Shown piece after piece: positions 7,431 to 31,300 of a stretch of DNA of 38,339 bases. Position 1 is the first letter of the stretch. The number at the start of each line of letters is the position of its first letter. Source of the DNA: Methanobacteriota archaeon (GTDB lineage: Archaea > Thermoplasmatota > Poseidoniia > Poseidoniales > Thalassarchaeaceae). The notes beneath the pieces were generated by a model, which was not told the DNA's origin, searched no databases, and saw nothing but the letters and a program-made list of their open reading frames with translations. Where the stretch lies: NCBI GenBank assembly GCA_002726275.1, contig PBSO01000039.1:1-38339 (forward strand). Direction: 5' to 3'. The position numbers and the translations under genes were made by a program.

Positions 7431-10286
7431 ATGGACTACGATGCCCAAGAAATAGAGACGCGCTGGCAGAAGGCGTGGTCCGACTCGAAGGCTTTCGAGG
7501 CAGAGGTGGACAGCACGAAGGAGAAGTTCTACTGCCTCGAGATGTTTCCGTATCCATCCGGCCACATGCACATGGGCCATGTCCGAAACTACTCGATAGG
7601 CGATGCAATGGCAAGGTTCCAGAGGATGATGGGCAGGAACGTCCTCTATCCCATGGGCTACGACTCGTTCGGCATGCCCGCAGAGAACGCAGCGAAGAAG
7701 GAGGGAGGGCACCCACACAACGTAACCCACCGAAACATATCCAGTATTCGTGCCGATCAGGAGAGGATGGGGTACTCTTACGATTGGAGGAGGTTCCTAG
7801 CAACCTCCGACGTCGACTATTACAGGTGGAACCAGGAGATGTTCCTAACTCTGAATGAAAGCGGACTAGTCGAGAGGAGGACAGCACCAGTCAATTGGTG
7901 CACCGATTGCGACACCGTTCTCGCCAATGAGCAAGTCAAGAACAACCGCTGCTGGAGATGCGGGCTCGAAGTGGTACAGAGGGACATGTCGCAGTGGTTC
8001 CTAAGGATGACCGACTACTCAGACGAGCTCCTCGACGAACTCGAGAACATATCATTCCCGGAGAACGTTAAGGCCATGCAGAGGAATTGGATAGGACGTT
8101 CTCACGGAGCCCACATAGACTTCAAGATAGACGGTTCAGAATCGGTGGTAGGGGCCTTCACAACAAGGCCAGACACAATTTTCGGTGTCACGTTCATCAC
8201 CCTGTCCCCGGAACACGAACTCTGTGAGGAACTCTGCGCAGGAACAGAATGGGAAGACGGTTGGAGGGAACTGCTCGATGAGTGCACCCGAATGTCCGAA
8301 TTCGAGAGAATCAATATGCTCAAGGAGAAGAAGGGGGTATTCCTAGGCAGGTATGCCGTCAATCCACTCAGTGGCGAGAGGGTTCCGGTATATGCTGGAA
8401 ATTTCGTTGTAGCATCTTATGGGACAGGGGCCGTCATGGCAGTACCCGGACATGATCAGAGGGACTTCGATTTCGCCAAGAGGTATGGGTTGGAGATCAG
8501 ACGAGTATTGGTGGAATCCGAGGGGGACGACCCCGAAGCCGAACTATCCGTGGCCTTTGATGGGTACGGGCCCATGGTCAACTCCGCCAGAGACGGATTT
8601 GATGGACTCACCGGCGACAGTGCCAAGGGGGCGGTAATCTCAGTTTTGGAGGACGAGGGAACGGGCCATGGAACGGTGCAATATCGATTGAAGGACTGGT
8701 TGCTGAGCCGCCAGAGGTTCTGGGGCACCCCCATCCCGATGATTCACTGTCAGAAGTGCGGAATTGTCCCCGTTCCCTCAGAAGACCTTCCTGTAGAACT
8801 CCCTCTGGATGTGAAATTCACTGAGGATCAGAAGGGAAATCCGCTAGAGTCACACGACTCTTTCGTCAACGTCCCATGCCCAACATGCGGTGAAATGTCC
8901 AAGAGGGAGACTGACACCATGGATACCTTCTATGACTCATCATGGTACTTCATGAGATTCTGTGATGCCAATAACGACGAGTCCCCGTTTAACAGGGAAG
9001 CAGTTGACTATTGGATGGATGGCGGTGTGGACCTCTATATCGGAGGTATTGAGCATGCTGTAATGCACCTGCTCTATGCGCGATTCTTCACAAAGGCCAC
9101 TAGGGACCACTCGATGAACGAGGTTGGAGAGCCATTCGGGAGACTTGTCTGCCAAGGCATGCTAAATGCACCTGCACCGTTCTGTTCTGACTGCAACACA
9201 GAGTACCACATCGACCACTTCGGTGGCGATTGCCCCTCTTGTGGATTGACATTGTCCTCAAGATCCGCCAAAATGAGCAAATCACTCGGGAATACCGTAA
9301 GTCCCGAGGAGATGATAGCAAAGTACGGGGCCGACACTGTACGACTCTTCATCCTCTTTGGAGCGAATCCAGAGGCAGGAATGGACTGGTCTGACAGTGC
9401 CCTCGAGGGTAACCACAGGCAGATGTTCGCAATCATCGAAGCATTCGACTCAGCACAATCGATGCAAGAAAATCCCTCTGAGATTGACGAGTGGCTCAGG
9501 GCCAGAATCAGGGTCAATCAAGACTCATGGAGGGATGCAATGGCCAACGTTTCATTGAGGGAGGGTGTGATGATTAGCCATTTTGAGATGATTTCTGACT
9601 GGAACTGGTACAGGAGAAGAGGGGGCTCTGACGGCAACACCGCTTCCGACTTCCTCAGAGCATGGGTCCCCATGCTCGCACCCGCAACTCCCCACATTGC
9701 AGAGGAGTTCTGGAGTCAGATGGGAGGAGATGGCCTCTTGGCAATGCACGTGATGGAAGAGTCCGGAACCGCTTCAGAAGATATCCAGGTTCTGGCTAGA
9801 GAGAGGTATCTCAGAAATGTAATCTCAAGCGCCAGGAATCTGAGGTCAATGGCCGAGAAGCATTCTCATGGTGGAATCAACAGCGTTGTGATTCAGACAG
9901 CGGCAAAATGGAAGTCAGATTTGGCTAGGGAGTCACTAAGGCTCGACTTAGAAGGATTCGACTTCAAGGCGAATGGACAGTCCCATGTCCAATCTCTCCC
10001 CATATTCGAGAATGAGACCTTGAGGGGGGAGATTTTCCAGACTTGGATGGCTCTCACAGTTGGCAGTAAGAAGAAGAGGGGAAGGATACACACATGGCCA
10101 GAGGGAGACATCTCCCTGATCAACTCAGGATTGAATGAGGCCGAGGTCCTGTCATCCAATGCACAATTTCTAGCAGACGCTCTCGATGTTGAACTAGTCA
10201 GCGTCTATCCAGTCGGAGAAGGCGAAGACGTAGCAGGTAAGGCACGAGTCGCCTTCCCACTGGAGCCCGGTATAGCGTTCCAATAA
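7431..10286 (+). CDS. leuS: Leucyl-tRNA synthetase, bacterial form
   Basis: Charges tRNA-Leu with leucine in the cytoplasm. The 951-residue product starts MDYDAQEIETRWQKAW and has the class I HIGH motif as PSGHMHMGH (42-50) in the context MFPYPSGHMHMGHVRNYSIGD, and KMSKS at 614-618. The block DCDTVLANEQVKNNRCWRCG, then SQWFLRMTDYSDELL, matches bacterial LeuRS. Two further Cys pairs (CQKCG, and CSDC...CPSCG) suggest zinc ribbons. The CP1 editing region is present (FTTRPDTIFGVTF; YGTGAVMAVPGHDQRDF). Archaea normally carry the archaeal/eukaryotic LeuRS, so this gene looks bacterial in origin. ATG at 7431 is preceded by GGAG at seven bases. The C-terminal tRNA-binding part is present though its end is divergent. 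Confidence 0.96.
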   Translation: MDYDAQEIETRWQKAWSDSKAFEAEVDSTKEKFYCLEMFPYPSGHMHMGHVRNYSIGDAMARFQRMMGRNVLYPMGYDSFGMPAENAAKKEGGHPHNVTHRNISSIRADQERMGYSYDWRRFLATSDVDYYRWNQEMFLTLNESGLVERRTAPVNWCTDCDTVLANEQVKNNRCWRCGLEVVQRDMSQWFLRMTDYSDELLDELENISFPENVKAMQRNWIGRSHGAHIDFKIDGSESVVGAFTTRPDTIFGVTFITLSPEHELCEELCAGTEWEDGWRELLDECTRMSEFERINMLKEKKGVFLGRYAVNPLSGERVPVYAGNFVVASYGTGAVMAVPGHDQRDFDFAKRYGLEIRRVLVESEGDDPEAELSVAFDGYGPMVNSARDGFDGLTGDSAKGAVISVLEDEGTGHGTVQYRLKDWLLSRQRFWGTPIPMIHCQKCGIVPVPSEDLPVELPLDVKFTEDQKGNPLESHDSFVNVPCPTCGEMSKRETDTMDTFYDSSWYFMRFCDANNDESPFNREAVDYWMDGGVDLYIGGIEHAVMHLLYARFFTKATRDHSMNEVGEPFGRLVCQGMLNAPAPFCSDCNTEYHIDHFGGDCPSCGLTLSSRSAKMSKSLGNTVSPEEMIAKYGADTVRLFILFGANPEAGMDWSDSALEGNHRQMFAIIEAFDSAQSMQENPSEIDEWLRARIRVNQDSWRDAMANVSLREGVMISHFEMISDWNWYRRRGGSDGNTASDFLRAWVPMLAPATPHIAEEFWSQMGGDGLLAMHVMEESGTASEDIQVLARERYLRNVISSARNLRSMAEKHSHGGINSVVIQTAAKWKSDLARESLRLDLEGFDFKANGQSHVQSLPIFENETLRGEIFQTWMALTVGSKKKRGRIHTWPEGDISLINSGLNEAEVLSSNAQFLADALDVELVSVYPVGEGEDVAGKARVAFPLEPGIAFQ

Positions 10287-14974: not shown

Positions 14975-16306
14975 TTAAGGCTCTCTGCAGATTAAATACA
15001 CTGTATGGCCACTCTCCCCTCTGGATAGCTGGACATCAGCCATGAATGAACGATCACCTTCGATGTCCCTCATGGCCTTGTGTAAACGCCTTTGCAAAGT
15101 AGGGTGCAATTCAGGATCAAGCGAGCATCTGAGGGTGATGCTCCCAATTTCATTTCTAGCCAATGAGGCAGCTGTCAAGTCGATACTGTGAAGCTCTGGG
15201 GGTGATAGCCGGTGCTGGACCACTTGTCCGGTGGCAACTACGAATCCCATCACATTGTCGTCATCGGCAAGGGGCTCCGTGTGTATCAGGATCGGCCTTC
15301 TTCCACTCGTCCTAAGCCAGGTCCTCCCCCCTCTTCCTCCTAATGCTGACTCGATCCAGTTGTCCTGTAAGCCACTCTCCAGGAGTACAGGATCCAATAT
15401 TGAAATCCAGGATCCGAAAGGCGGCGGCTCACTAATTTCTGAAGCGACAGCAATAGATGGCTTACCCTCTATGACTGCCATGATTTTCTTTGTCCCCATT
15501 CTAACGCACCTCCTGGGGCTCTTTGAGGATAGAGAACCAGACCAGACTGACAGGCGATCCACGCGCCCCCCTCCCTGGCTGAGCCACTCCCACGTCCTCC
15601 TTATTCCTGGGAAAGACGTCTCAATCGTGGCATCGATCATCGACTGTTGATCATCATCAAGCCTTGGAGAGAGGTCTAGAAGAATGCAAGGCCCGTTGGG
15701 CCCGGGCTCTAGATAATCCTTCCATGAACTTAGCACGGGTCCCAGTGACGGCTCCATCTCGTCAATGTGGTGATTCTGTGCATCCATTGGCCTCGCAGGA
15801 TCAAGATGCAGCATGGCTACCGGTGGGTGGGCCCTAGTTCCTGCTTCCCTAAGGCTGGACCAATACTCGGTCATCACTCCCTCAGCATCTGAACCATCTC
15901 CGATCACTATCCTGTCCATTGACCTCTGGACGTCATTTGACTCCGCTGCTACGAACATGTTTGCGGCACATAGAACCGCCACGTTTCCATCTATCTCTAC
16001 GCCCAATGAGGGTCTCTTGAGAATCTTCGAGTAAGCAATTAGCTGAATCCCAGAACCAGTTGCAACATCTGCTATTACCCCTGGTCCAAGCGACTTGGGG
16101 TCTATCTGTCCCGCTCTCGCCAAAGCCACGCCCCATGGAGTAGAAAGCCTCCTCATCCTTTCCGTCATGTGGAAAGAAGGGTCCCCCTTTCGTGACGATT
16201 TTGCTTTCGCACGCCTCCCCGCTTCCTTTGCCACTTCAGGGGAGGGCATAACCGATGCATGGCCGTTTTCTTCAGACATTGTATTGAACCTCTTCTCGTT
16301 ATTCAT
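14975..16306 (-). CDS. SAM-dependent methyltransferase with THUMP-like C-terminal domain
   Basis: The 443-residue product has motif I VIADVATGSGIQLIAYS, motif II LGVEIDGNVAVLCAANM and motif IV MLHLDPARPMD, followed by LLDLSPRLDD and EWLSQGGGRVDRLSVWSG. This DPAR...SPxLD...EWLS-GGRVDRLSVW layout matches the bacterial and archaeal class I methyltransferases that carry a THUMP-like domain (PF18096 type), thought to act on RNA. The C-terminal part after about residue 290 (MGFVVATGQVVQHRLSPPEL) would be that domain. The target base is unknown. The ATG at 16306 overlaps the FKBP gene stop by one base (TAATG), so the two are coupled; a second ATG nine codons in is possible. The N-terminal 40 residues are basic and low-complexity. 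Confidence 0.8.
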   Translation of the reverse strand: MNNEKRFNTMSEENGHASVMPSPEVAKEAGRRAKAKSSRKGDPSFHMTERMRRLSTPWGVALARAGQIDPKSLGPGVIADVATGSGIQLIAYSKILKRPSLGVEIDGNVAVLCAANMFVAAESNDVQRSMDRIVIGDGSDAEGVMTEYWSSLREAGTRAHPPVAMLHLDPARPMDAQNHHIDEMEPSLGPVLSSWKDYLEPGPNGPCILLDLSPRLDDDQQSMIDATIETSFPGIRRTWEWLSQGGGRVDRLSVWSGSLSSKSPRRCVRMGTKKIMAVIEGKPSIAVASEISEPPPFGSWISILDPVLLESGLQDNWIESALGGRGGRTWLRTSGRRPILIHTEPLADDDNVMGFVVATGQVVQHRLSPPELHSIDLTAASLARNEIGSITLRCSLDPELHPTLQRRLHKAMRDIEGDRSFMADVQLSRGESGHTVYLICREP

Positions 16307-17268
16307 TATACACCAACAATAGCCGTAACCTCTAATTCGAACCTAAGCCATGAATTCTTCAGTTCATGGCTTTCCGATCCACCATACGCTATGCTGGGGG
16401 GAAGGAGTGTGATATGACTGGTTCCCGGGCCCCACCCCGCCGGTGTCCCAACGGGTGCGACTGAATTGATGTCAAGGCCTATCGCAGACCAGCCAAAACC
16501 TTCGATGTAGTTGGGGTCATCACCAGCAGTTACTAGCAGATCACCCTCATCCAACAGCTCACCTGTATCGGCGTCCCAGACCTTGTAATTTACCTGAAGT
16601 CTATCTCCATCTTTGGAATGCAACTCGCGTTCCTCAACTCCCTTGAAAACCGTAACATCCAGCTTAACCTCAGCTGAAACCAAAGCAACATGGGAAGCAA
16701 CAACGGTGAAAGAGCTCTCGTCAACGTCCTCTGTAAGCTCTATCTCTAGGATTATGGAGTCATTGCCCTGAAACTCGTTAATCAGCATTTGAGTGTCGTC
16801 CGAGCTCGAGAATAGCACATTCGCCCCCTCAATCTCAAGAAGCAGATCAAGAGTCTGATTCCCCCTATTGTACACCGCTACAGATGCCCTGTCGCCAGAC
16901 CCCTGGTGCTCCCAGTCGCACCGCAACTCGCCAGGATACAGGAAAACGTCATCCTGCGAGGAAAGATTTTCCGGCCAATCCCAATCACCTTCTCTAGAAT
17001 CGCAGGTGTCGAAAAGAAGGTCTACCTCCCAAGCCCACCTCCCATCCATCTCCAGCATAGACTCGTCAACAGATCCAAATGAATCCTCAAGTTGACTCAT
17101 GAAGCTGTATGCGCTAATGCCTATCCACGCTGTGGATAGCAATATTACCAGTATCGTAGATAGTGAAAGGAGAATAGCCACTCTCGGAACAGCCATCTCA
17201 TTGATACCCAGTGGCACGGGAGGATGCTCGACTTCGTCGGGTGTGTCCGATATCCACGACCGCGTCAT
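16306..17268 (-). CDS. Membrane-anchored extracellular FKBP-type prolyl isomerase
   Basis: Residues 25-55 hold one membrane segment (VAILLSLSTILVILLSTAWIG), split here as VAILLSLSTILVILL and STAWIG, after a 25-residue cytoplasmic lead. A Cys-containing extracellular beta region follows (DTCDSREGDWDW; ELRCDWEHQGS). The C-terminal ~95 residues are FKBP-like: DRLQVNYKVWDADTGELLDEG, in two parts DRLQVNYKVW and DADTGELLDEG, then YIEGFGWSAIGLD, SHITLLPPSIAYGG and WLRFELEVTAI. The IAYGG and the final F-E-V strand fit the family, while the active-site aromatics are only partly conserved, so catalysis is uncertain. It probably folds or holds secreted proteins. It heads a unit with the methyltransferase; TATA-like GTTTATTT lies 53 bases upstream. 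Confidence 0.8.
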   Translation of the reverse strand: MTRSWISDTPDEVEHPPVPLGINEMAVPRVAILLSLSTILVILLSTAWIGISAYSFMSQLEDSFGSVDESMLEMDGRWAWEVDLLFDTCDSREGDWDWPENLSSQDDVFLYPGELRCDWEHQGSGDRASVAVYNRGNQTLDLLLEIEGANVLFSSSDDTQMLINEFQGNDSIILEIELTEDVDESSFTVVASHVALVSAEVKLDVTVFKGVEERELHSKDGDRLQVNYKVWDADTGELLDEGDLLVTAGDDPNYIEGFGWSAIGLDINSVAPVGTPAGWGPGTSHITLLPPSIAYGGSESHELKNSWLRFELEVTAIVGV

Positions 17269-17355: not shown

Positions 17356-20300
17356 CTAGTCCCTCACTAGCTCCTTTTCGTAAGTTATTCCCAGCCACGA
17401 CACTATTCCCAACTCGATTGCCACAATGATTAGCCCTCCGAGTAAGAATACAGGATTGGTTAGAACACCACCGAAGAACACCAACGCTGTCAAAATAGCC
17501 AAAATCAAGTCTACCAATCCCCAAATTCGCAATCCTCTCCGCAGCTGTAGTATGCCAACCACCCAAACCGTGGTTGACATGAGGATGAGCGCAGCGGGTA
17601 GGAGGCCCGCAACCCCGCCTCCGATCAATCCAATCACAATCAGAAGATGACCATTAGAAGCTAACATAGCAGACCACTCGCCTTTCTTGGTTGGGACGGT
17701 CAATATGCAGAGCAGCATCGCAATCACTCCCAGTGTTGCGCTAGATGCACCTATGGGTGGGTTAAACCACACGTCCCAATTGCTAGTGGATATCATTACG
17801 AGGACAATCCCTGGAATAGCGATGCCCACCGAGCTCGGCTGCTCCCTCTTCAGCCCCTGGGCGATCGCACTAGCGACTGCTAAGACTCCAGCGGGGCCAA
17901 ATGAGAGAATTACAACCGCAATGGCCCGACCACCTCTGCCAGCACCCCCCTTCATGTCCCTCCTTCCCTTGGATTTACGCAAGCCATCAATCAGGAAATC
18001 GGCAATTACTGCAATAATTAGGACAACTTCCAGTAAGAAAAGAGGAACTTCCCATTCCAATGAAAATCCCCCTGAGAATGGATCAACAGTGAGGGGCCAG
18101 GGCAATGATTCGTAAAGCAACGAACCGATTAGACGATCAACCAAGAGGGACAATATCAACCAGTCTATTGCAATGGGAATCCTGTCTAGCATGTTTTTCT
18201 GTTGGAATAGTGAAATTGCTACTAATTCTAACACAATCACCACAACTACAGCCATTCCGAGTAGATCTTGGTTGCTTCCCCCGGGGCCAAGTAGAGATGC
18301 GATGTGAGCGAGAACAACCCCACTGATTGCAATAGCTATTGGGGCCTCTATTCCACCAATATGGGGTAGCTCCAAATCCAGCCTCTTGGTTCTTAGTCTC
18401 GCTATTGCAACAAGAACCGTTACGAATGCCCCACACGAAAGGAGGATGATCGGACTGGGCCCAGTAGTCAGCCCGATAATCACATTTGCACCCAGTACTA
18501 CTGCCATTACAGATATCACGATTACAGGTCGGTGACTAACATCAGTGGTGTAGAGATCCTCTAGGTCCTTCGCCGGCGCGAGCTCCCTCCTCTTCCCCCG
18601 GACCTCCTTCATCGCAGCAATTTGCGGATCAAAACCTGATATTGCCCCTATATTGCCTGAAATTATTGAGGACGCTCCTGAGGAAGTCATAGCTTGCTCC
18701 TTCCTCTTACTTAGTTCGGAAATAGACCTTAGTTCTCTTCGTAACTCCCCTCTGGCGACTAACCAGATTGAACTGAGGATGAATATTGCAACAGAAGCAT
18801 ACAATGCCGATGAGTCTCCAATCTGCCAAGTAAGTGAGACAGTAATCACCATCAACCAAAGAGATGCGAGAGCTGGTTTGAGCAAATCCTCGATCTTCCC
18901 AGCCTTCGGGAGGTATACGCCCAGAAGGGCTGCTGTGCAGGACACTGCCACGAAGCCACTATCGAGATCAGGGAGAGAATTGGAAAGAGACAACAATCTT
19001 GACGGCTCACTACCAGACAAGAAAACAAGCAGGGGGAGGCTCATAAGTCCCATCGATAATGTGTATTTCCTATCTTCAATCTCTCTCTCAAACTGAATCA
19101 GCAAGAGTAGAAGGGCACAGAGAATTACACTCAGAACTTCTCCAATCCCGTGCCTCCATTGTATAATTATAGCACTAGCGAAAATGATCATCATCATCAT
19201 ACCCACTCCACCAACTCTAACCCCTCTGACATGCGCTCCAAGATGGAGGATCCAGATTACGCTACACACCACCATCAGACTCGGAGCCGTGAAACCCCCA
19301 AATTGCGCCATGAAGACTGTCGTAATCATGGGTATCCACAGTCCCAGACTCCAAAGCTGGAGGGCACCAGAGTCTCTAATTGATGCCGATATCTCCGAAA
19401 TTCCAAGGAATTTAGATGCGAGATTGACATTGGTTGAACCAAGCTTCTCATTTACAATTGCCATTAGTATTGAACAAATTATCAAGTATCCAGCTAGTGG
19501 TACAACCTCTACCTCAATCACACTTCCCGGATCAATACGATCGTTAGCTACTAGGACAGTTCGAATTGCTTCCTCCAGCGCCTCCTCAAACACTATCCAG
19601 GTCCATGGTAGTAGGACCGTGACTCCTGCAAGAGATGGAGACTTCCTCCTCACCGATAGAATTGCCGTACCTATGTGAAGGATGGACAGTAGGGAAAGAA
19701 GAACCACCCCACCATCCCCTCCCGATTGCCTCGACTCCGATGGAACAAGAATGACTAGTAAGATCAGTATAGCCACAGATCCTCCCCATAGGACCCTGTC
19801 AGTAACAATGTCCTGATCCCTGAGAATTACGAAACCAGTAACCGCAGTACCAATAATTGTGAAAAGAACATATTCCGAAATCGAGAGGTAATCATCAACC
19901 AGATCCCCGTTCGCGAGCATGATAGTTAGTATCAGGGACGAGTACAATAGTGGGGCCGCCACTCTCTTCGGGGAAACCCCCCTTACAGTAAGGTACGAGC
20001 CCCCAAAGGAACCTCCCAACACGGTAACCATCCCTAGAGCGTAACCCACATCGTCTCTGTTTGCAGCCACTGCTAGAAGTGCCCCAATGAGGCCCATTGA
20101 TACAGAAACCCCCCAAAGGCCCGGCTTCCCAAGTCCCATTACCCTCATCGCATCAGAAAACCAATTTTTCTCCCTCGAGAATTTGGATGCCATCGACGCA
20201 TTAGCTGCAGTAACTCCCATCATCAAAGTGAAAAGAAGAAGGGGGGAATCCAATGGGAGTATCCTCAACTCACCAATCTGGAACCCACTGGTTGTGGCGT

Positions 20301-21108
20301 GCATCCCAATCCACAAATTAGATGCAGCAATTCCCAATGCTGCAAGATTCCCCGACATCCGTTGAAGAGCCAGGCCGTGTATCAGAATCGTAGATAGAAG
20401 AATCATTGCCGCAATCCCCTCTTGTCCGAATAGAGACCCTGCTGTAGAACCAATAGCAAGTAGGACAAGAGTAGACTGAGCCGCAATCGCATCGTGGTCG
20501 TACCTATAGGCAACAGCCACGTTTACGCCAACAAGACCAATCAATAGAACTCCAAGCTCCTCTACCCCTATCACGTCCCATCTTTGCAATTCTATGGCGA
20601 GCCCATACAGAACCTTCATCGAAATGATTACCCATGTTACCCCAAGGATCTTCATGCTCTTCCTGGGAATCCAAATTTCCCCTAGTCCGAAGCCAATAGC
20701 AGCTAGGACTACCAGCGAGACTCCAGCCGGAAGCGGGTCCATCACTACCCCTATTTGCACCCCTATTGCGCTGTAGACTAGTATCATTGATCCCATTAAG
20801 GCCCAATTTATCCTACGTTCGCCTTCTACAGCAATTTCTGTAACTACATCCCTATCCGGGGCCGACTTAACGCTGCCATCAGAACTGACAACTCCCGGAG
20901 AATCTGAATCGGGCTCAGAAAATGGGTCAAAGATTTCTCCGATGGCCTCGTCTCTTTCTTTCTCTGTGACCGACTTATCCTCGACTTGAGCTTCATCTGT
21001 TCCCTGAATTATGTCCCCTATCTCTATCCTGTCACTAATTCTGAATGACCTCTCACGGATGACTTCGTCATCAGGATCATCGCGCTCCATTGCTCTCCCG
21101 TGGGGCAT
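17356..21108 (-). CDS. Giant polytopic membrane protein, about 35 membrane segments
   Basis: No family is recognised. The 1,250-residue product has an acidic cytoplasmic N-terminus of about 100 residues (MERDDPDDEVIRERSFRISD; DEAQVEDKSVTEKERDEAIG), then 24 hydrophobic helices by eye. A charged cytoplasmic loop of about 80 residues follows (LRRELRSISELSKRKEQAM; MKEVRGKRRELAPAKDLEDL), then about 12 more helices to the C-terminus. Helices are short, Gly/Ala/Ile-rich and joined by very short loops; no transporter, glycosyltransferase or protease motif stands out. The layout recalls large DUF2339-like multi-helix proteins, but no motif confirms that. ATG at 21108 starts MPHGRAMERDD; the ATG six codons later is an alternative. 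It diverges from pckA across a shared AT-rich box. Confidence 0.85.
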   Translation of the reverse strand: MPHGRAMERDDPDDEVIRERSFRISDRIEIGDIIQGTDEAQVEDKSVTEKERDEAIGEIFDPFSEPDSDSPGVVSSDGSVKSAPDRDVVTEIAVEGERRINWALMGSMILVYSAIGVQIGVVMDPLPAGVSLVVLAAIGFGLGEIWIPRKSMKILGVTWVIISMKVLYGLAIELQRWDVIGVEELGVLLIGLVGVNVAVAYRYDHDAIAAQSTLVLLAIGSTAGSLFGQEGIAAMILLSTILIHGLALQRMSGNLAALGIAASNLWIGMHATTSGFQIGELRILPLDSPLLLFTLMMGVTAANASMASKFSREKNWFSDAMRVMGLGKPGLWGVSVSMGLIGALLAVAANRDDVGYALGMVTVLGGSFGGSYLTVRGVSPKRVAAPLLYSSLILTIMLANGDLVDDYLSISEYVLFTIIGTAVTGFVILRDQDIVTDRVLWGGSVAILILLVILVPSESRQSGGDGGVVLLSLLSILHIGTAILSVRRKSPSLAGVTVLLPWTWIVFEEALEEAIRTVLVANDRIDPGSVIEVEVVPLAGYLIICSILMAIVNEKLGSTNVNLASKFLGISEISASIRDSGALQLWSLGLWIPMITTVFMAQFGGFTAPSLMVVCSVIWILHLGAHVRGVRVGGVGMMMMIIFASAIIIQWRHGIGEVLSVILCALLLLLIQFEREIEDRKYTLSMGLMSLPLLVFLSGSEPSRLLSLSNSLPDLDSGFVAVSCTAALLGVYLPKAGKIEDLLKPALASLWLMVITVSLTWQIGDSSALYASVAIFILSSIWLVARGELRRELRSISELSKRKEQAMTSSGASSIISGNIGAISGFDPQIAAMKEVRGKRRELAPAKDLEDLYTTDVSHRPVIVISVMAVVLGANVIIGLTTGPSPIILLSCGAFVTVLVAIARLRTKRLDLELPHIGGIEAPIAIAISGVVLAHIASLLGPGGSNQDLLGMAVVVVIVLELVAISLFQQKNMLDRIPIAIDWLILSLLVDRLIGSLLYESLPWPLTVDPFSGGFSLEWEVPLFLLEVVLIIAVIADFLIDGLRKSKGRRDMKGGAGRGGRAIAVVILSFGPAGVLAVASAIAQGLKREQPSSVGIAIPGIVLVMISTSNWDVWFNPPIGASSATLGVIAMLLCILTVPTKKGEWSAMLASNGHLLIVIGLIGGGVAGLLPAALILMSTTVWVVGILQLRRGLRIWGLVDLILAILTALVFFGGVLTNPVFLLGGLIIVAIELGIVSWLGITYEKELVRD

Positions 21109-21156: not shown

Positions 21157-21232
21157 TGAATTCTAGAGAATCGCCACAGCCGTAACCCTTGAAGGGTAAT
21201 TGCTATCGCCGGGTGACATGGAGGGACCCACC

Positions 21233-22831
21233 ATGTCGGCCCCTCCCTCAAATCCTTCAACCCCTCTGAGCTCTCATGGACTCGAGCCGAGTGGAAAGGT
21301 ACATTGGAACCTTGGTTGGGAGGAGTTGCATGGAATTGCAGTAGACAGGGGAGAGGCAACGCTGACTTCTCAAGGTGTACTGCTGGCCACCACTGGAGAG
21401 AGAACGGGGAGGTCCCCGAACGATCGCTTCATTGTAGATGAACCAGGAATGGCCGATGACGTTTGGTGGGGAGAAGTCAACAAGTCAATCCCAGCTTCTT
21501 CCTTCGATAGGCTCCTCAAGAAGACCCGGGATCACTTAGACAAAGCAGACCAATTATTCGTCAAGGACGCATTCTGCGGCGCGGATCCAAGATACAGGAT
21601 GCCAGTTAGACTAGTTACTGAGAAGGCTTGGCATGCCGCCTTCATGCACAACATGTTCGTCAGGATTAACCAGGAAGAGTCCACAACACACCAACCGCAA
21701 TACACAATCCTACACGCACCCGAATTACAGGCCTCGCCCAGCGAGGATGGGACAAACTCTGGCGTGTTTGTAATATTGGCATTAGACCGCGGCTTGGTGA
21801 TAATCGGCGGAACACACTATGCCGGTGAGATAAAGAAGGCAATTTTCACAATAATGAATCATATTCTACCAGCCGATGGCCTGCTTCCCATGCACTGTTC
21901 AGCCAACACCAACGAGGACGGCTCGGCTCTCTTCTTCGGCCTATCTGGAACTGGAAAAACCACACTGTCCGCAGACCCGAAAAGAGCACTCGTCGGTGAC
22001 GACGAGCATGGTTGGTCGGATGAGGGAGTATTCAACTTCGAAGGGGGATGTTATGCAAAGATGATCAACCTCTCTGAAAAGGACGAGCCAGCAATTTTCG
22101 CTACTACCAGAATGAAGGGAACAATTCTGGAAAACGTGGTATTGAACGCCGATGGGACACCTGATTTCTACAACAGCTCTCTAACTAAGAACACCAGGGG
22201 GTCATACTCAATCGAGGCAATAGAAAACAGAACCCCCGACTCAATGGCGGGGAACCCTAAGAACGTGGTATTCCTAACATGCGACGCGTTTGGAGTCCTG
22301 CCTCCACTTTCTCGCTTGACCCCTGAGCAGGCGGCATACCACTTCATGTCTGGATATACTGCAAAGGTTGCAGGCACTGAGATGGGAATTACCGAGCCCC
22401 AGGCAACTTTCTCAACATGTTTCGGGGCACCTTTCATGCCACGCCACCCCTCTGTATATGCAGACCTTCTATCAAACAAAATCCGCATTAATAATGCCAA
22501 GTGCTGGCTAATCAACACTGGTTGGGTTGCAGGCGGATACGGAGCAAGTAGCCGAATCAAGATCAGGTGGACAAGGGCGTTGCTAAACTCGGCATTAGAC
22601 GGCGATTTGGATGATGTTGTTTTTGTCGATGACGAGAGGTTTGGTTTCTCAGTCCCTACTACATGCGAGGGAGTGCCCGACTCGATACTGCAGCCAAGGG
22701 ATACTTGGCACGACAAGAAGAAGTATGATGGAACGGCAAACGTACTTGCTCAAATGTTCATTGAGAACTTCGAACAATACTCAGATGCCTGCAGCCAAGA
22801 AGTTATGGACGCTTCACCAAAGCAACTCTGA
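21233..22831 (+). CDS. pckA: Phosphoenolpyruvate carboxykinase (ATP)
   Basis: Converts oxaloacetate and ATP to PEP, CO2 and ADP, the entry to gluconeogenesis. The 532-residue product matches the ATP-type family (E. coli 540). It has TGERTGRSPNDRFIVDEP near the N-terminus, the substrate Arg region, and the P-loop GLSGTGKTTLSADP (236-249; K242, T243). The metal and kinase-2 segment GDDEHGWSDEGVFNFEGGCY (20 residues) comes next, then the C-terminal adenine region. TTG (21200) and ATG (21218) also start in frame, but the ATG at 21233 has GGAGGG seven bases upstream and gives the usual N-terminal length. It converges with maeB, their stops five bases apart inside one hairpin. Confidence 0.96.
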   Translation: MSAPPSNPSTPLSSHGLEPSGKVHWNLGWEELHGIAVDRGEATLTSQGVLLATTGERTGRSPNDRFIVDEPGMADDVWWGEVNKSIPASSFDRLLKKTRDHLDKADQLFVKDAFCGADPRYRMPVRLVTEKAWHAAFMHNMFVRINQEESTTHQPQYTILHAPELQASPSEDGTNSGVFVILALDRGLVIIGGTHYAGEIKKAIFTIMNHILPADGLLPMHCSANTNEDGSALFFGLSGTGKTTLSADPKRALVGDDEHGWSDEGVFNFEGGCYAKMINLSEKDEPAIFATTRMKGTILENVVLNADGTPDFYNSSLTKNTRGSYSIEAIENRTPDSMAGNPKNVVFLTCDAFGVLPPLSRLTPEQAAYHFMSGYTAKVAGTEMGITEPQATFSTCFGAPFMPRHPSVYADLLSNKIRINNAKCWLINTGWVAGGYGASSRIKIRWTRALLNSALDGDLDDVVFVDDERFGFSVPTTCEGVPDSILQPRDTWHDKKKYDGTANVLAQMFIENFEQYSDACSQEVMDASPKQL

Positions 22832-25302: not shown

Positions 25303-28300
25303 GTGGAATGCCGAGGAACCGTGGATATCAATTTTCAAGGCAGGGCCAACCTTGCTCAGAGGAAGGCGATTCTCCTAGTGGCACTCATGCTCCTACTCCC
25401 ATGGGCTTCCGTAAATGGCCCCGAACTCACCTCGATAGATGACGACTCCTCCACTTCTGCAAGGACTTGGGGAGCTATGGGGAGCAATGATACTGGTTGG
25501 GTGGACATCGTAGCAACGGGCGCCGATCCAGCCAACCAGACATTCGCGTACGGTGAACTTTCTCTGGATTTCGCACCCGGAGCTGAGATTTCCAACTTGA
25601 CATTCGAGATTTCCGTGGACGGCTCGGACGGATATTGCATGGATGAACCACAACTCACCCTTCTGGAGACCCAAACTCCCATACTAGATTGGAGGGATCT
25701 CGGGGGGCTTGGCTGTCAAGACTCGTTCACTAACAACCCTCCCACTCTGGAGGAGGGTACTCTGAGCACTTGGCTTCAACCCAACACCATTAGCGATGCA
25801 GCATGGACACTGCCTGCAGGAATCACCATTTCCGACTTAGTAATGGAGGTCCTCACCCCCTCCGATCCAAAGGTCTCCTTCTCGACATTGGACGTTGTCG
25901 TTCACGACAGTGCGGTAAACCCATTAGACGGCAGACTCTACATCCTCCTGGACAACGACCTAATCCACCTCGACAGCGATATGGCAGAGACTTGCGGATG
26001 GAGATGTCCCGGAATCATCCACATCGACTCAGATATCACTGGGAGCAGCTTGGCTGTGGATGAATCTGGAAACAGGCTCATTATCGGCAAGCAAGATGGC
26101 TCAATAAGCTCACAGTCTCTTATTGACTCATCATTCAATCCGGATTTGCTACCAGCAACATCGGATTCGGATCCGGTATCTGCCATGTCAGTGGATCAGT
26201 ACGGAAATGTCTGGGCAGCATCTGGATGCAGTCTGAAATTCCTTCCTAACGGTGGCGTATGGTCAGATATCACATACTGCCCGGGCTCGCCAGAAGTCCC
26301 CGTTGATATCGAATCGTACAGCGATAAGATATTCCTAGCTACCCAGAGTACGGGAATTCATGTCATAGAGTACACGTACAACACCACCACTTCAGAATGG
26401 GATGTGCCAAGCGCCGAGGCGATTACCATTTGGGACACCAACAACTTCCTATCAAGCAACTCCATCACTGATATGGAAATAGCCTCTGACCAACTACTCA
26501 TTTCCACTCTGAATGCAGGAATCAATCGTAGGGACTTGAGCACCTCCTCATGGCTCTCTAGGTGGAATACCAACAACTGGCTCGCTTCAAACTCAGTCAT
26601 AGGGGTGTCTCATACGAGTGGCTGGATACACATCGTTGCGGGGACAACACTTCACTCATACGACACAACTGCAAACGTCTTCCGATCCCAGAGGCAAGTA
26701 TCACAGTTGGGCCTGCTGGGTCCAGCAACATCTGTTTCCTCGTGGCCTTCTGGAATCGGCCCAAGGAGCCCAGCAGATGGAGTTGTGTTCCTTATTGACT
26801 CCACGGGCAGAGCGGGAATGCAACACGCTGAGACTGTAATTGGAGCTGAATCACTAGTCAGCAGCCCTGTTTCCGACCCAATGAGGGTCGCAGCAAGGAT
26901 TGACGACGGTGAGTCTGGACAGATATGGGTGGCTGGAGACACCACAATCGACCGATTCGACGAAGGAGCGAGGATTTGGCAGGCTCCGATCGATGTCAGT
27001 GACTACGCTGGCCAGCAACTCCAAACAATCACATCAATAGTTCAGGATTCCAACGACAGGGTTTGGGTCGGCACATCAAACTCAGGGATTCTCAGATTCA
27101 GAGCGGACAACGGAGCATATATTGGCACAATCAACGGTATTGAGGACCAAGTAATATCCATGGCTCACGATGACACCACGGAAACCCTCGTCGTGGGGCA
27201 CCCATTCAACGGACTGTCACTAGTCAACACCTCCACAATGACCCTAATCGACGTACTCGACACAACAGACGGATTGGACTCCGATTTGGTCACAGATGTT
27301 GCAACCAGATATGGGATTGCATACGCAGCAACCTCTGACAGCGGTCTGATGAGAATAGACCTGATGGCCCTCCAGATACTCGGATCATGGCAATCACTGG
27401 GTGCAGACAACCTAGAGGCCACCCCCATAGCAGTGGATGAAGACGTAATTTACCTGGGGCTTCCAGACTTCGGAATTCTACTCCTAGACAGGATGAATGG
27501 GGACATCATCGACTACTGGGAGCCAGGGGGAAGCAACGGACTTCCGGATGACGACGTACTGTCCCTCCACATGCTGGGAAGCGAGTTGGTAGTCGGATCG
27601 AGAGTTTCCAATACGGGAGCCCAGTCAAACGGTGGACTGGCCATCTGGGACGGGGCCTCCTGGGAACAGCTCCCAACTAGCATCCAAGGATGGAACAACG
27701 ACCCCTACGTATTCTACGATATCACCAGTGATGGCAGCGACATATACGCCGGAACAAACCGTGGGGCCTGTCGATGGTCGGTCGACTCCAACGGTGCATG
27801 GCAACTAGACGTGTGCGTCGACCAAGGCGATGGAATGCCGGCTAGGCAGATTTACTCTGTCCAGCTAATCGGTTCCAACACGCTTTACGCAGGTACCGAC
27901 AATGGTGCAGCCGTCATCAACACCCTCAATGGCTCAGTAATGGAAGTCTGGAACGCTGGAGACGATACCCAGAGAGCTAGAACCGTGAAAATTGACGACA
28001 TACTATACCTAGGATTCGAGAACACCGGAATAGCCAGATACGACTTAATCAACGATCAGTGGTTGACAACCTGGGATGGAACACAAGGATACATCGACGA
28101 CGACGACGTCACTGCATTGGTAGAGGGAACTGAACCTGGAACAATGTGGGCTGGAGGGGACTTCGGACTCACGCTGATCGATGTGGCCAATGACCAGGTA
28201 CTGATTGATTGGAACAGAGGAGCCAACTCAGGTGGACCAACCCTCTCCAACCAGATCCCAGCAGACATAGTGATCATGGGAGACGTCCTTCACTACTCGA

Positions 28301-31300
28301 CACAGAGAAGCAACCAGTGGTGGGCATCGAATGACGAGATAACCAGAATAGCCCTGAACAACAACACCTCACTCACCACGATAGATGCAGGAAGCCAGAT
28401 AGGATTCGATGGGGTGGTCTATGGAATAGGCGAGGTTGGAGACGAGCTCTGGATTGGCGTACGCCCGACCCAGTACTGGAACAATGGCGATGGGACGGTC
28501 GTGAGATGGAACACGGTAAACGAGACTTGGTCAGATAACCTTGGAACCATAGGAAACGTACTCAGGGTAAATGCCAGGCTCCTCGGGGACTGCTTCCCAT
28601 TGAATGCGAGCTCCTGTGAGATGTGGGTGGCATACGGTGACAACATCATGAGACGATTCAGCTTCGCGACAATGACCCTCTTGGACGAGTGGTCAGATAT
28701 AGACGGGCCGATAAGGGGGATGGTGGAGTTCGACGGAGAGTACCTCTTCGCGAGCATGAACGGAATATTGAGGTGGAACCCATCCAACGAGACTTGGTTG
28801 ACCCCTTGGACGGAGAACAGCGGCCTTCCCAACAACTCCGAGGAGGAATTCTACTCAATGACTGTGATCGGCGACGATCTCTGGGCTAGCTCAATGCAAT
28901 CCTCTGGTTGGAACTCCAATGCACAAATATTCAGGAAGAACGGAACCACTGGGAATTGGACCGCATGGGATCTCGATTCTGGTGACATTCCAGATGGCTA
29001 CGGGGCAGACATCGTCCTATGTGATGACATCGTTCACGTAGCCATTGGAAGGAGATTCTGGTGGGGCAACCAAGGAGGCGTCGCTAGGTTCGATTTCGCA
29101 GACCACGACTCAGATGGTCAGACGGGTGAATGGATATCCCCCCTTACTGACGGAGGGTCCAACGGACTCGCGAATGCAGATGCAAGGGCTCTGGCCTGCG
29201 ACGAGTCAAACAGAATCCTTTACGTCGGATACGATGAGGAAGGGGTAGGATTCGACAGGATGAACTACAACACAGGAAACTTCCTGACAACCCTGACATC
29301 TGCTGATGGGATTTCAGAGGATAGGATCTTCCCAGGCGGGATGCTACACGACGGTAATGTACTTCTGGCCGCCCACCAATTCGACAACACAGGTGGAGTT
29401 TCGAGGATAGTCACCTCTGGGACTTCGGCCTCTAGTGGACAGGTGATAGATCCAGGTATGGATGGATGTTCAATCGTCAGAGTCCCATCGACATCAACCC
29501 CCGTCTACGCAGTAGGTCGCTCGGGCCAGACAACAGGCCTGAACAGAGTCGACAGACTGGACAGCACGGGCTTGATTGCCGGGGGCTTCGACGAGCTAGC
29601 AGGCCTATCCAGTGGGAGAGTCGTAGAATTCGCCTCCAACTCAACCCATGTCTGGGTTTCATCAACACTAGATGAGGGGTCATATTACGGCTCGTCCATC
29701 CTACAAGGGGAGATACTGCAGAATGGTTCGGTCAGATGGGAGGATGGTTACAGCCTCCTCGGTCAAGACGTCGTCAACAGTATGACCCTGCAAGATGAAA
29801 CCATGTGGATAACCACAGCTGGCAGGGGACTCTGGTCAGTCGACCTCTCCCAGAGATCATTCTCGCCCACACCCGCCGCTCTTCACGTCCAGATGGATGG
29901 AATGGTTCTCGAGGATGACGGCACGATGTATGTGGGACTGATGGGTTACCAGGGTTCCGCAGCAGGCTTCCAAGAATTTGACACCTCCACAGGCTCCTGG
30001 GGCTACGGGAGCCTCCTTGCAGGACTTCCAAACGACCGAGTCAGGGACTTCGCAGAGGTCGATGACAAGATCCTAATCGCCACATGGGGGGGAATTGGGG
30101 TCAGGAACACAACCACTTCAGAATGGGAAGACCCAATCACCACAATCGATGGACTCCCAATGCAGATTTACGAGCACCTCCTTGTCCTTGACGACCCAAT
30201 ACAAGGAGATGGTCACATCCTAGCAGGGGGGCCAGCGGGCCTGACCGTGTTGGCCACAAACCTCTCGGTTATTACCACTCTAAATTCAGGAGACGGACTC
30301 ATGGGCGAGACCGTCTCCGGACTAGTCTATGCCCCGGGGACATCTAGGACGGTGGTCAATGATGACGGCACGACATCCATCCTTTACCACGATGCCTCGG
30401 TATTCATCTCACACAATGGCCAGGGCAGCACCAGGCCCGGCGTAGTCGCATGGGACATAGCAACCGACAGAGTCAACGGAACTTACCAGATAGACAAAAT
30501 TCCAAGCAACGATGTTCGGGCTATAGCAACTGACTACTGGGGAGTCCACATTGCCACCGATGTGGCTCCAATAGTTCACTGGAATGCATCCACGTTGAAT
30601 ATGGAATCAGGCTCACCGTCAAACACCCTTCAATCATGGCCGCCCACAGAGCTTGTCTCCGACGGCACGCACCTAGCGATGATCAGCCCGGGTGGCATAG
30701 ATGTCATGGAAGTAGAGTCCAACCACGATGTTGTAGCATCTACTCAGATAATAGGGCCTAGGGGCGCGCATTTACACTCGACCGGACTTTACGTTGTTTC
30801 AGATGAAGGGCTGCACCACTTCGATCCTGTAGGCTCCTTGGTTCAGAGGGAGTCCGATGACCAGAGGGTCGCCCATCCCCTGAGTGCGATATACTCGGGA
30901 CGAATCTGGGAGAACATCCAGGATACAGCAAGGCCCGGGATGCAGACAGTACTGGTGGATGACGAGGAACCAATGGATATCGACATGGTGTCAGAAATGC
31001 CACTAGCTGGCAGGCTTCCAATGCACACAGGGGCATTGACATTGACATCCCCTCAGTCGGGGGCTTGGATTTGGGCAGAGTCAGCACATCTGAACTACTC
31101 GGGAATTTGGGATATGGCAGCTATGAACCCAGGAATCCAGCCAGCATTCCAGTCAGCGATATCAAGCGTCGGCCCAGGCTCAACAAGTGCCGAGACAACA
31201 ATACAACTCCAATCCCCACACAACGGCCAGATCAAGGTCAGGGTGACCTACGACTGGCAAAGAATAGAGGTCCCAACCACACTGACCAACCTATCCGACC

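Follow-up and report, generated by a model that had tools for sequence, protein, structure and literature searches.

The described protein that most resembles the one studied here is Arc3A of Pseudomonas aeruginosa, a member of the DUF2339 family for which 35 helices are predicted and catalytic residues are not evident (PMC8926400). When a phospholipase toxin acts, Arc3A prevents lysophosphatidylethanolamine and monolysocardiolipin from building up, and its loss raises the levels of both lipids (PMC8926400). Distant homologues complement Arc3A, and its authors propose that the helices may sequester lysophospholipids; DUF2339 members outside the Gram-negative phyla lack the Arc3B/DUF3999 partner (PMC8926400). 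Poseidoniales, for their part, are reported to have no glycerol-1-phosphate (G1P) backbone enzyme and to carry homologues of bacterial-type acyltransferases, and mixed membranes have been suggested for them (PMC6962369, PMC6461757). Marine Group III is also reported to lack the G1P gene (PMC6962369). In addition, 199 families are consistently associated with Poseidoniales (modules 32 and 71), and the lineage-specific hypothetical proteins are enriched in membrane helices (PMC9258230).

In a contig of the Poseidoniales family Thalassarchaeaceae, of which 38,339 nucleotides were analysed (the window), we find a gene whose product shares with DUF2339/Arc3A about 35 helices, a charged non-membrane N-terminal tail and the lack of evident catalytic residues.

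17356..21108, minus strand: coding sequence of the polytopic protein, 1250 aa, stop codon included; a single open frame with an ATG start

Comparison with relatives indicates that translation may start at Met7 (position 21090) instead. Relatives at 78%, 49–58% and 31–39% identity keep the frame open from end to end; therefore, 17356–21108 on the minus strand is a real gene. No sequence model in Pfam, NCBIfam, PADLOC or PDB matches the protein in single-sequence scans, no enzyme family is matched in Pfam/NCBIfam-type family scans, a PHROGs scan yields nothing (best E 0.89), and a PDB profile search with the protein family returns no match. The view of an earlier sequence-only reading, that the protein has no recognisable domain, is correct for every curated library used. 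Its label "unrecognised" holds for those libraries and not for deeper ancestry, where a controlled profile–profile comparison links the protein to DUF2339.

Of the 60 nearest genomes, 59 carry the gene, in most cases as one full-length copy; in some of the 60 it lies in pieces at contig ends or gives two collinear match segments. Conservation in marine archaea, which the sequence-only reading had proposed examining, extends to all 24 of those genomes that are at least 90% complete and to nearly all other Poseidoniales. In a sample of the class, 122 of 146 genomes carry the gene, only three of the 24 genomes without it are listed as members of Poseidoniales, and it occurs in both Poseidoniales (Marine Group II) families. 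In this 146-genome sample, no homologue occurs in the class's third family, probably Marine Group III. A profile of 31 orthologues finds nothing credible beyond Poseidoniales in 293 Thermoplasmatota genomes; two matches near E 0.009 in the rest of the phylum, each shorter than 75 residues and with an internal stop, were rejected as noise. A short-pattern scan of all GTDB genome contigs gives 310 loci, and the 80 of them that are listed are all labelled Poseidoniales, Marine Group II or unnamed euryarchaeal. Viral contigs contain no homologue of the 1250-aa protein, and plasmids searched with tblastn give no match; for bacteria, the search thus covered the plasmid collection and, beyond it, the short-pattern scan. 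The genomes surveyed are mostly incomplete metagenome bins. Because it is near-universal in Poseidoniales and has no credible homologue elsewhere in the samples searched, the gene counts as a single-copy core gene of Poseidoniales, and no close relatives were found beyond the order.

The protein consists of a tail, two membrane domains and an intervening loop.

20824..21108, minus strand: N-terminal acidic tail, residues 1–95, from the alignment of 31 orthologues; presumably cytoplasmic by loop charges
18745..20820, minus strand: first membrane domain, TM1–24, residues 97–788, from hydropathy, AlphaFold2 and loop charges
18526..18744, minus strand: charged cytoplasmic loop, residues 789–861, from the alignment, AlphaFold2 and loop charges
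17383..18525, minus strand: second membrane domain, residues 862–1242, with 12 crossings and a broken helix pair, from hydropathy, AlphaFold2 and loop charges
17848..17946, minus strand: broken helix, a likely re-entrant hairpin, residues 1055–1087, with a conserved SFGPAG break, from the alignment, AlphaFold2 and loop charges

Averaged over the alignment, hydropathy gives 35 peaks on the Kyte-Doolittle scale and 36 on the GES scale, with a union of 37, and divides them into 24 helices (residues 104–785), a charged loop and 13 helices (residues 862–1239). The AlphaFold2 model reproduces these helices. The about 35 membrane helices counted earlier are thus 36–37 by hydropathy and AlphaFold2, and the earlier split by a cytoplasmic loop into 24 and 12 agrees with the 24 helices before residues 789–861 and the 12–13 after them. 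The tail holds 28 D/E and 11 K/R in 95 residues, consistent with the acidic N-terminal region noted before, and the motifs DDxxIRxRxF, E.DEA.G..DPF and APE.D.VT..AV.GERR are kept in the 31 orthologues. Conservation is highest in the first membrane domain, and helices 1–17 hold most invariant residues. The loop is variable in length, and model confidence is lowest there. Since its mean content of D/E (15.2) nearly equals that of K/R (15.6), the loop is charged and not simply basic; of the "basic cytoplasmic loop" described earlier, the cytoplasmic position stands. With the short loops summed, the positive-inside rule is obeyed (30 K/R on the N-terminal side and 12 on the other). The charge pattern flips after residue ~1055, and in the model residues 1055–1087 form two half helices that meet at SFGPAG. 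In accordance with the inverted charge pattern that follows it, a re-entrant hairpin is the best interpretation of this segment. The topology predicted from hydropathy, loop charges and AlphaFold2 suggests 36 full crossings, with the N- and C-terminus both cytoplasmic.

Structure prediction and self-comparison had both been proposed as checks. The AlphaFold2 model, computed for residues 96–1250 from 95 orthologues, is confident (mean pLDDT 87.2, pTM 0.74, only five loop residues below 50), and it shows helix hairpins stacked in order. A fold match is not obtained: Foldseek finds nothing in PDB with E ≤ 0.001 and nothing among viral structures. The top weak PDB matches are soluble alpha-solenoids, importins, TPR proteins and designed toroids (7rdr, 6xr1), with TM-scores of 0.1–0.3; DdvA (8rw5, 8rot) is also among the weak structure matches. 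The solenoid and toroid matches indicate only hairpins stacked in order along a curve; these soluble proteins are unrelated and share a shape class rather than homology. No solved transporter fold or sequence is matched by Foldseek against PDB at E ≤ 0.001 or by the PDB sequence and profile scans.

19726..20469, minus strand: possible internal repeat, copy A, residues 214–461, from profile self-alignment
18994..19758, minus strand: possible internal repeat, copy B, residues 451–705, from profile self-alignment

Profile self-alignment pairs these two segments at an offset of exactly eight helices, with a score of 24.5 (null 17.7 ± 2.7) that is reached by two of 100 helix-block permutations. Self-comparison by hhalign gives no significant internal repeat and detects no similarity of the 13-helix part to the 24-helix part; the high values obtained with score correction off have inconsistent registers and were discarded. 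The possibility that the second domain is a copy of the first gains no support from hhalign. The self-alignment is no more than suggestive of an eight-helix duplication inside the first membrane domain. Because this repeat lies inside the first domain and none is found between the domains, a duplication within the first domain is likelier than a two-copy fusion. The "fusion or duplication" raised earlier is therefore narrowed to the suggestive repeat, and a duplication relating the 24- to the 12-helix part is not upheld.

By eye, an archaeal DUF2339 protein (locus L214) shares with our protein the order of several features, namely a GE pair after the second helix, YRHD/YYRN and R.SGNL/R.W..L. 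Therefore, 15 DUF2339 proteins (three archaeal and 12 from bacterial plasmids and chromids) were gathered for testing; since all 15 belong to a single family, they do not count as independent tests. The PF10101 model (cut-off 33.6 bits) matches none of 31 members at E ≤ 1, and all Poseidoniales genomes searched are without a match at E ≤ 0.01, with control genomes positive. In a first hhalign run on untrimmed profiles, the reversed control outscores forward DUF2339, apparently through alignment of charged loops with coiled coils. For the second run, both charged segments, tail and loop, were cut away, and the artefact disappeared.

20284..20682, minus strand: DUF2339-like N-terminal core, residues 143–275, from hhalign against seven DUF2339 references
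17368..17604, minus strand: possible DUF2339-like C-terminal stretch, residues 1169–1247, from hhalign to the DUF2339 C-terminal end

After trimming, the first domain aligns with the seven references at raw scores of 32.4–40.8 (reversed, 18.9–21.7), where hhalign probabilities are at most 22% and pairwise hhalign E-values are not database E-values. Among decoys from 22 unrelated polytopic families, scored forward as well as reversed, the maximum is 26.2; four of these families (three complex I-type groups and STT3) are represented by deep alignments similar in size. The register is constant, residues ~143–275 pairing with the DUF2339 N-terminal core in all seven references, and the core follows the pattern LGERWIP...YRHD.DAIAAQ...R.SGNLASLGIA..LWIG. 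The second domain aligns to the DUF2339 C-terminal end at 27.8–31.2 for five of the seven references and at 20.4–20.7 for two, with a decoy maximum of 22.1, reversed scores of 12.8–15.2 and a permutation test result of 4–7/60 for most references. The order of the core match and this tentative C-terminal match is collinear with DUF2339. With helix-block permutations, our own profile aligner gives z-scores of 2.6–5.7 for the 15 references, with 0–1 of 60 permutations scoring that well. Small decoys give −1.0 to 4.3, one of them reaching 4.3; the deep controls (complex I-type, STT3) and reversed DUF2339 together give −0.1 to 1.8, of which the deep controls account for −0.1 to 1.6. Over most of residues 175–265, the register is agreed by 12–14 of 14–15 references. 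We read the profile data as probable remote homology and do not claim family membership; that the protein and DUF2339 share a distant ancestor is, in our judgement, likely. The sequence-only reading had proposed a remote-homology search and had named a confident match to DUF2339 as grounds for giving up its view: curated libraries, PF10101 among them, return no such match, and the profile–profile link scores above the 22 polytopic control families.

The protein nevertheless differs from DUF2339 in several respects. No member tested reaches the PF10101 threshold, and the protein's second domain, with the SFGPAG re-entrant helix, and the long cytoplasmic loop are mostly unmatched. The protein is confined to one archaeal order, in all of whose high-quality genomes searched it is found, whereas PF10101 is rare in Thermoplasmatota. 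In other Thermoplasmatota, PF10101 proteins are sporadic, exceeding the cut-off in 5 of 293 genomes, and lie in frames of ~600–1680 aa (loci L214, L215, L216 and L218). No DUF2339 relatives were found in viral contigs, and no DUF2339 entry was found in PDB by sequence.

Three genes lie next to or near the gene in the window.

21200..22831, plus strand: ATP-type phosphoenolpyruvate carboxykinase (PEPCK), divergent neighbour
16306..17268, minus strand: p320, downstream neighbour, 320 aa, with one N-terminal membrane anchor and, by eye, an FKBP-like C-terminus
14975..16306, minus strand: p443, a conserved 443-aa protein with no Pfam or NCBIfam match

Only PEPCK is retained as a neighbour in both Poseidoniales families. 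p320, which has no Pfam or NCBIfam match, adjoins the gene only in Thalassarchaeaceae, where the same-strand order is the 1250-aa gene, p320, p443, S13, S4, S11 and RpoD. p443 lies just upstream of S13 in this family and also beside S13 in one genome of the other family (locus L035). In the other family, the next gene is mostly a phosphohexomutase-like gene (FGTDGIRG motif, by eye) that faces the 1250-aa gene. No lipid gene and no Arc3B/DUF3999 gene is seen adjoining, with neighbours identified by Pfam, window-gene similarity or eye. Identity between relatives is lower for the 1250-aa protein than for neighbouring genes. The context points to no function. Farther along the window, a 2877-aa frame (25303–33936, plus strand) has Reg_prop as its sole Pfam match, a marginal one that stays below cut-off; it adjoins the malic enzyme/phosphotransacetylase and PEPCK genes, and many Thalassarchaeaceae retain relatives of it at that place. 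The leucyl-tRNA synthetase at 7431–10286 (plus strand) is of bacterial type, TIGR00396 scoring far above cut-off and the archaeal model below. STT3/AglB-type oligosaccharyltransferase matches in most Poseidoniales genomes lie in frames of ~3000–3240 aa, several times the usual STT3 size (loci L271-L295, e.g. L289); the match in the genome of the window is at G000:C17:755-1435.

PlsC-like PF01553 acyltransferases occur in 40 of 40 Poseidoniales genomes; the four well-known archaea in the control set have none. The G1P dehydrogenase family (PF13685) is above cut-off in none of 40 Poseidoniales genomes. Both results agree with published reports (PMC6962369, PMC6461757), and ester or mixed lipids are expected in these archaea. 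Among bacteria, Sphingobium has a DUF2339 gene close to genes for an acyl-ACP-phospholipid acyltransferase and a sterol desaturase, and Peptoclostridium has one close to a CDP-alcohol phosphatidyltransferase gene. Because Arc3A prevents lysophospholipid accumulation and the lipid genes of Poseidoniales are unusual, a lipid-handling role can reasonably be proposed, and by inference it is the best supported of the three functions guessed earlier (scaffold, channel, lipid-related). We regard such a function as plausible, though somewhat short of an even chance. Against it, Marine Group III, which is probably the third family of the class, is also reported to lack the G1P gene, yet no homologue was found in that family. 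In the proposed mechanism, the ~37 helices would form hairpins that stack, as in the predicted model, to give a curved solenoid or a ring embedded in the bilayer, with the acidic tail and the large charged loop on the cytoplasmic side. The helical wall would bind or shield single-chain or abnormal membrane lipids, such as lysophospholipids, and would thereby keep them from accumulating; prevention of lysophospholipid build-up is shown for Arc3A in Pseudomonas. The common fold, the ring shape, the lipid binding and the in-vivo role are what we infer.

On balance, we favour the explanation that the 1250-aa protein is a far-diverged relative of DUF2339/Arc3A peculiar to the order, with non-enzymatic lipid handling as its likeliest job. 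The near-invariant S1069 and G1071 of the broken re-entrant helix, the invariant polar residues inside helices and the suggestive eight-helix repeat could also belong to a secondary transporter or channel of new fold, in which the unwound SFGPAG helix and in-helix charges (K165, D206, H270 and E1027) would form the substrate path and the repeat would be the usual transporter duplication. However, Foldseek finds no transporter fold in PDB at E ≤ 0.001, its best matches being soluble alpha-solenoids and toroids with very low TM-scores, and no substrate-binding or energy-coupling gene is linked in both families. To our knowledge, known single-chain transporters that lack a recognisable transporter domain also have far fewer than 37 helices, which counts against this explanation; we consider it unlikely.

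Alternatively, Poseidoniales may have invented the protein, which would then have converged on a DUF2339-like composition and act as a scaffold organising membrane proteins or membrane shape. Its strict restriction to the order, the class and phylum being otherwise without a detectable homologue, fits such an origin, as do relatives less alike than those of neighbouring genes and a DUF2339 link below database significance. Convergence is nevertheless improbable in our estimate, given a similarity that is collinear at both ends, fixed in register and above 22 polytopic control families. The conserved order from the gene through p320 and p443 to S13, S4, S11 and RpoD across Thalassarchaeaceae would also fit a part in the operon that it heads, for example in membrane protein folding or ribosome-linked insertion with the FKBP-like protein. 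In the other family, however, the gene stands alone between PEPCK and the facing phosphohexomutase-like gene, with the ribosomal genes elsewhere or apart. Therefore, the operon link is not ancestral or not needed, and we give this explanation very little credence.

Within the favoured reading, a divergent DUF2339/Arc3A relative, a more far-reaching version is conceivable, if rather doubtful: the protein may represent a Poseidoniales class of its own, a giant lipid-handling core protein rooted in the bacterial Arc3A family and remodelled until no longer recognisable, which would make an unusual membrane, of putative bacterial or mixed type, workable or guard it against phospholipases. If the link to DUF2339 is true, a class known from bacterial phospholipase defence would be a fixed single-copy core component of one of the most abundant orders of ocean archaea, and a concrete, expressible gene would be at hand for asking about membrane composition and maintenance in Poseidoniales, where the G1P dehydrogenase is missing and PlsC-like acyltransferases are present. 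Even without a function, a universal Poseidoniales protein missed by annotation libraries now has a confident model.
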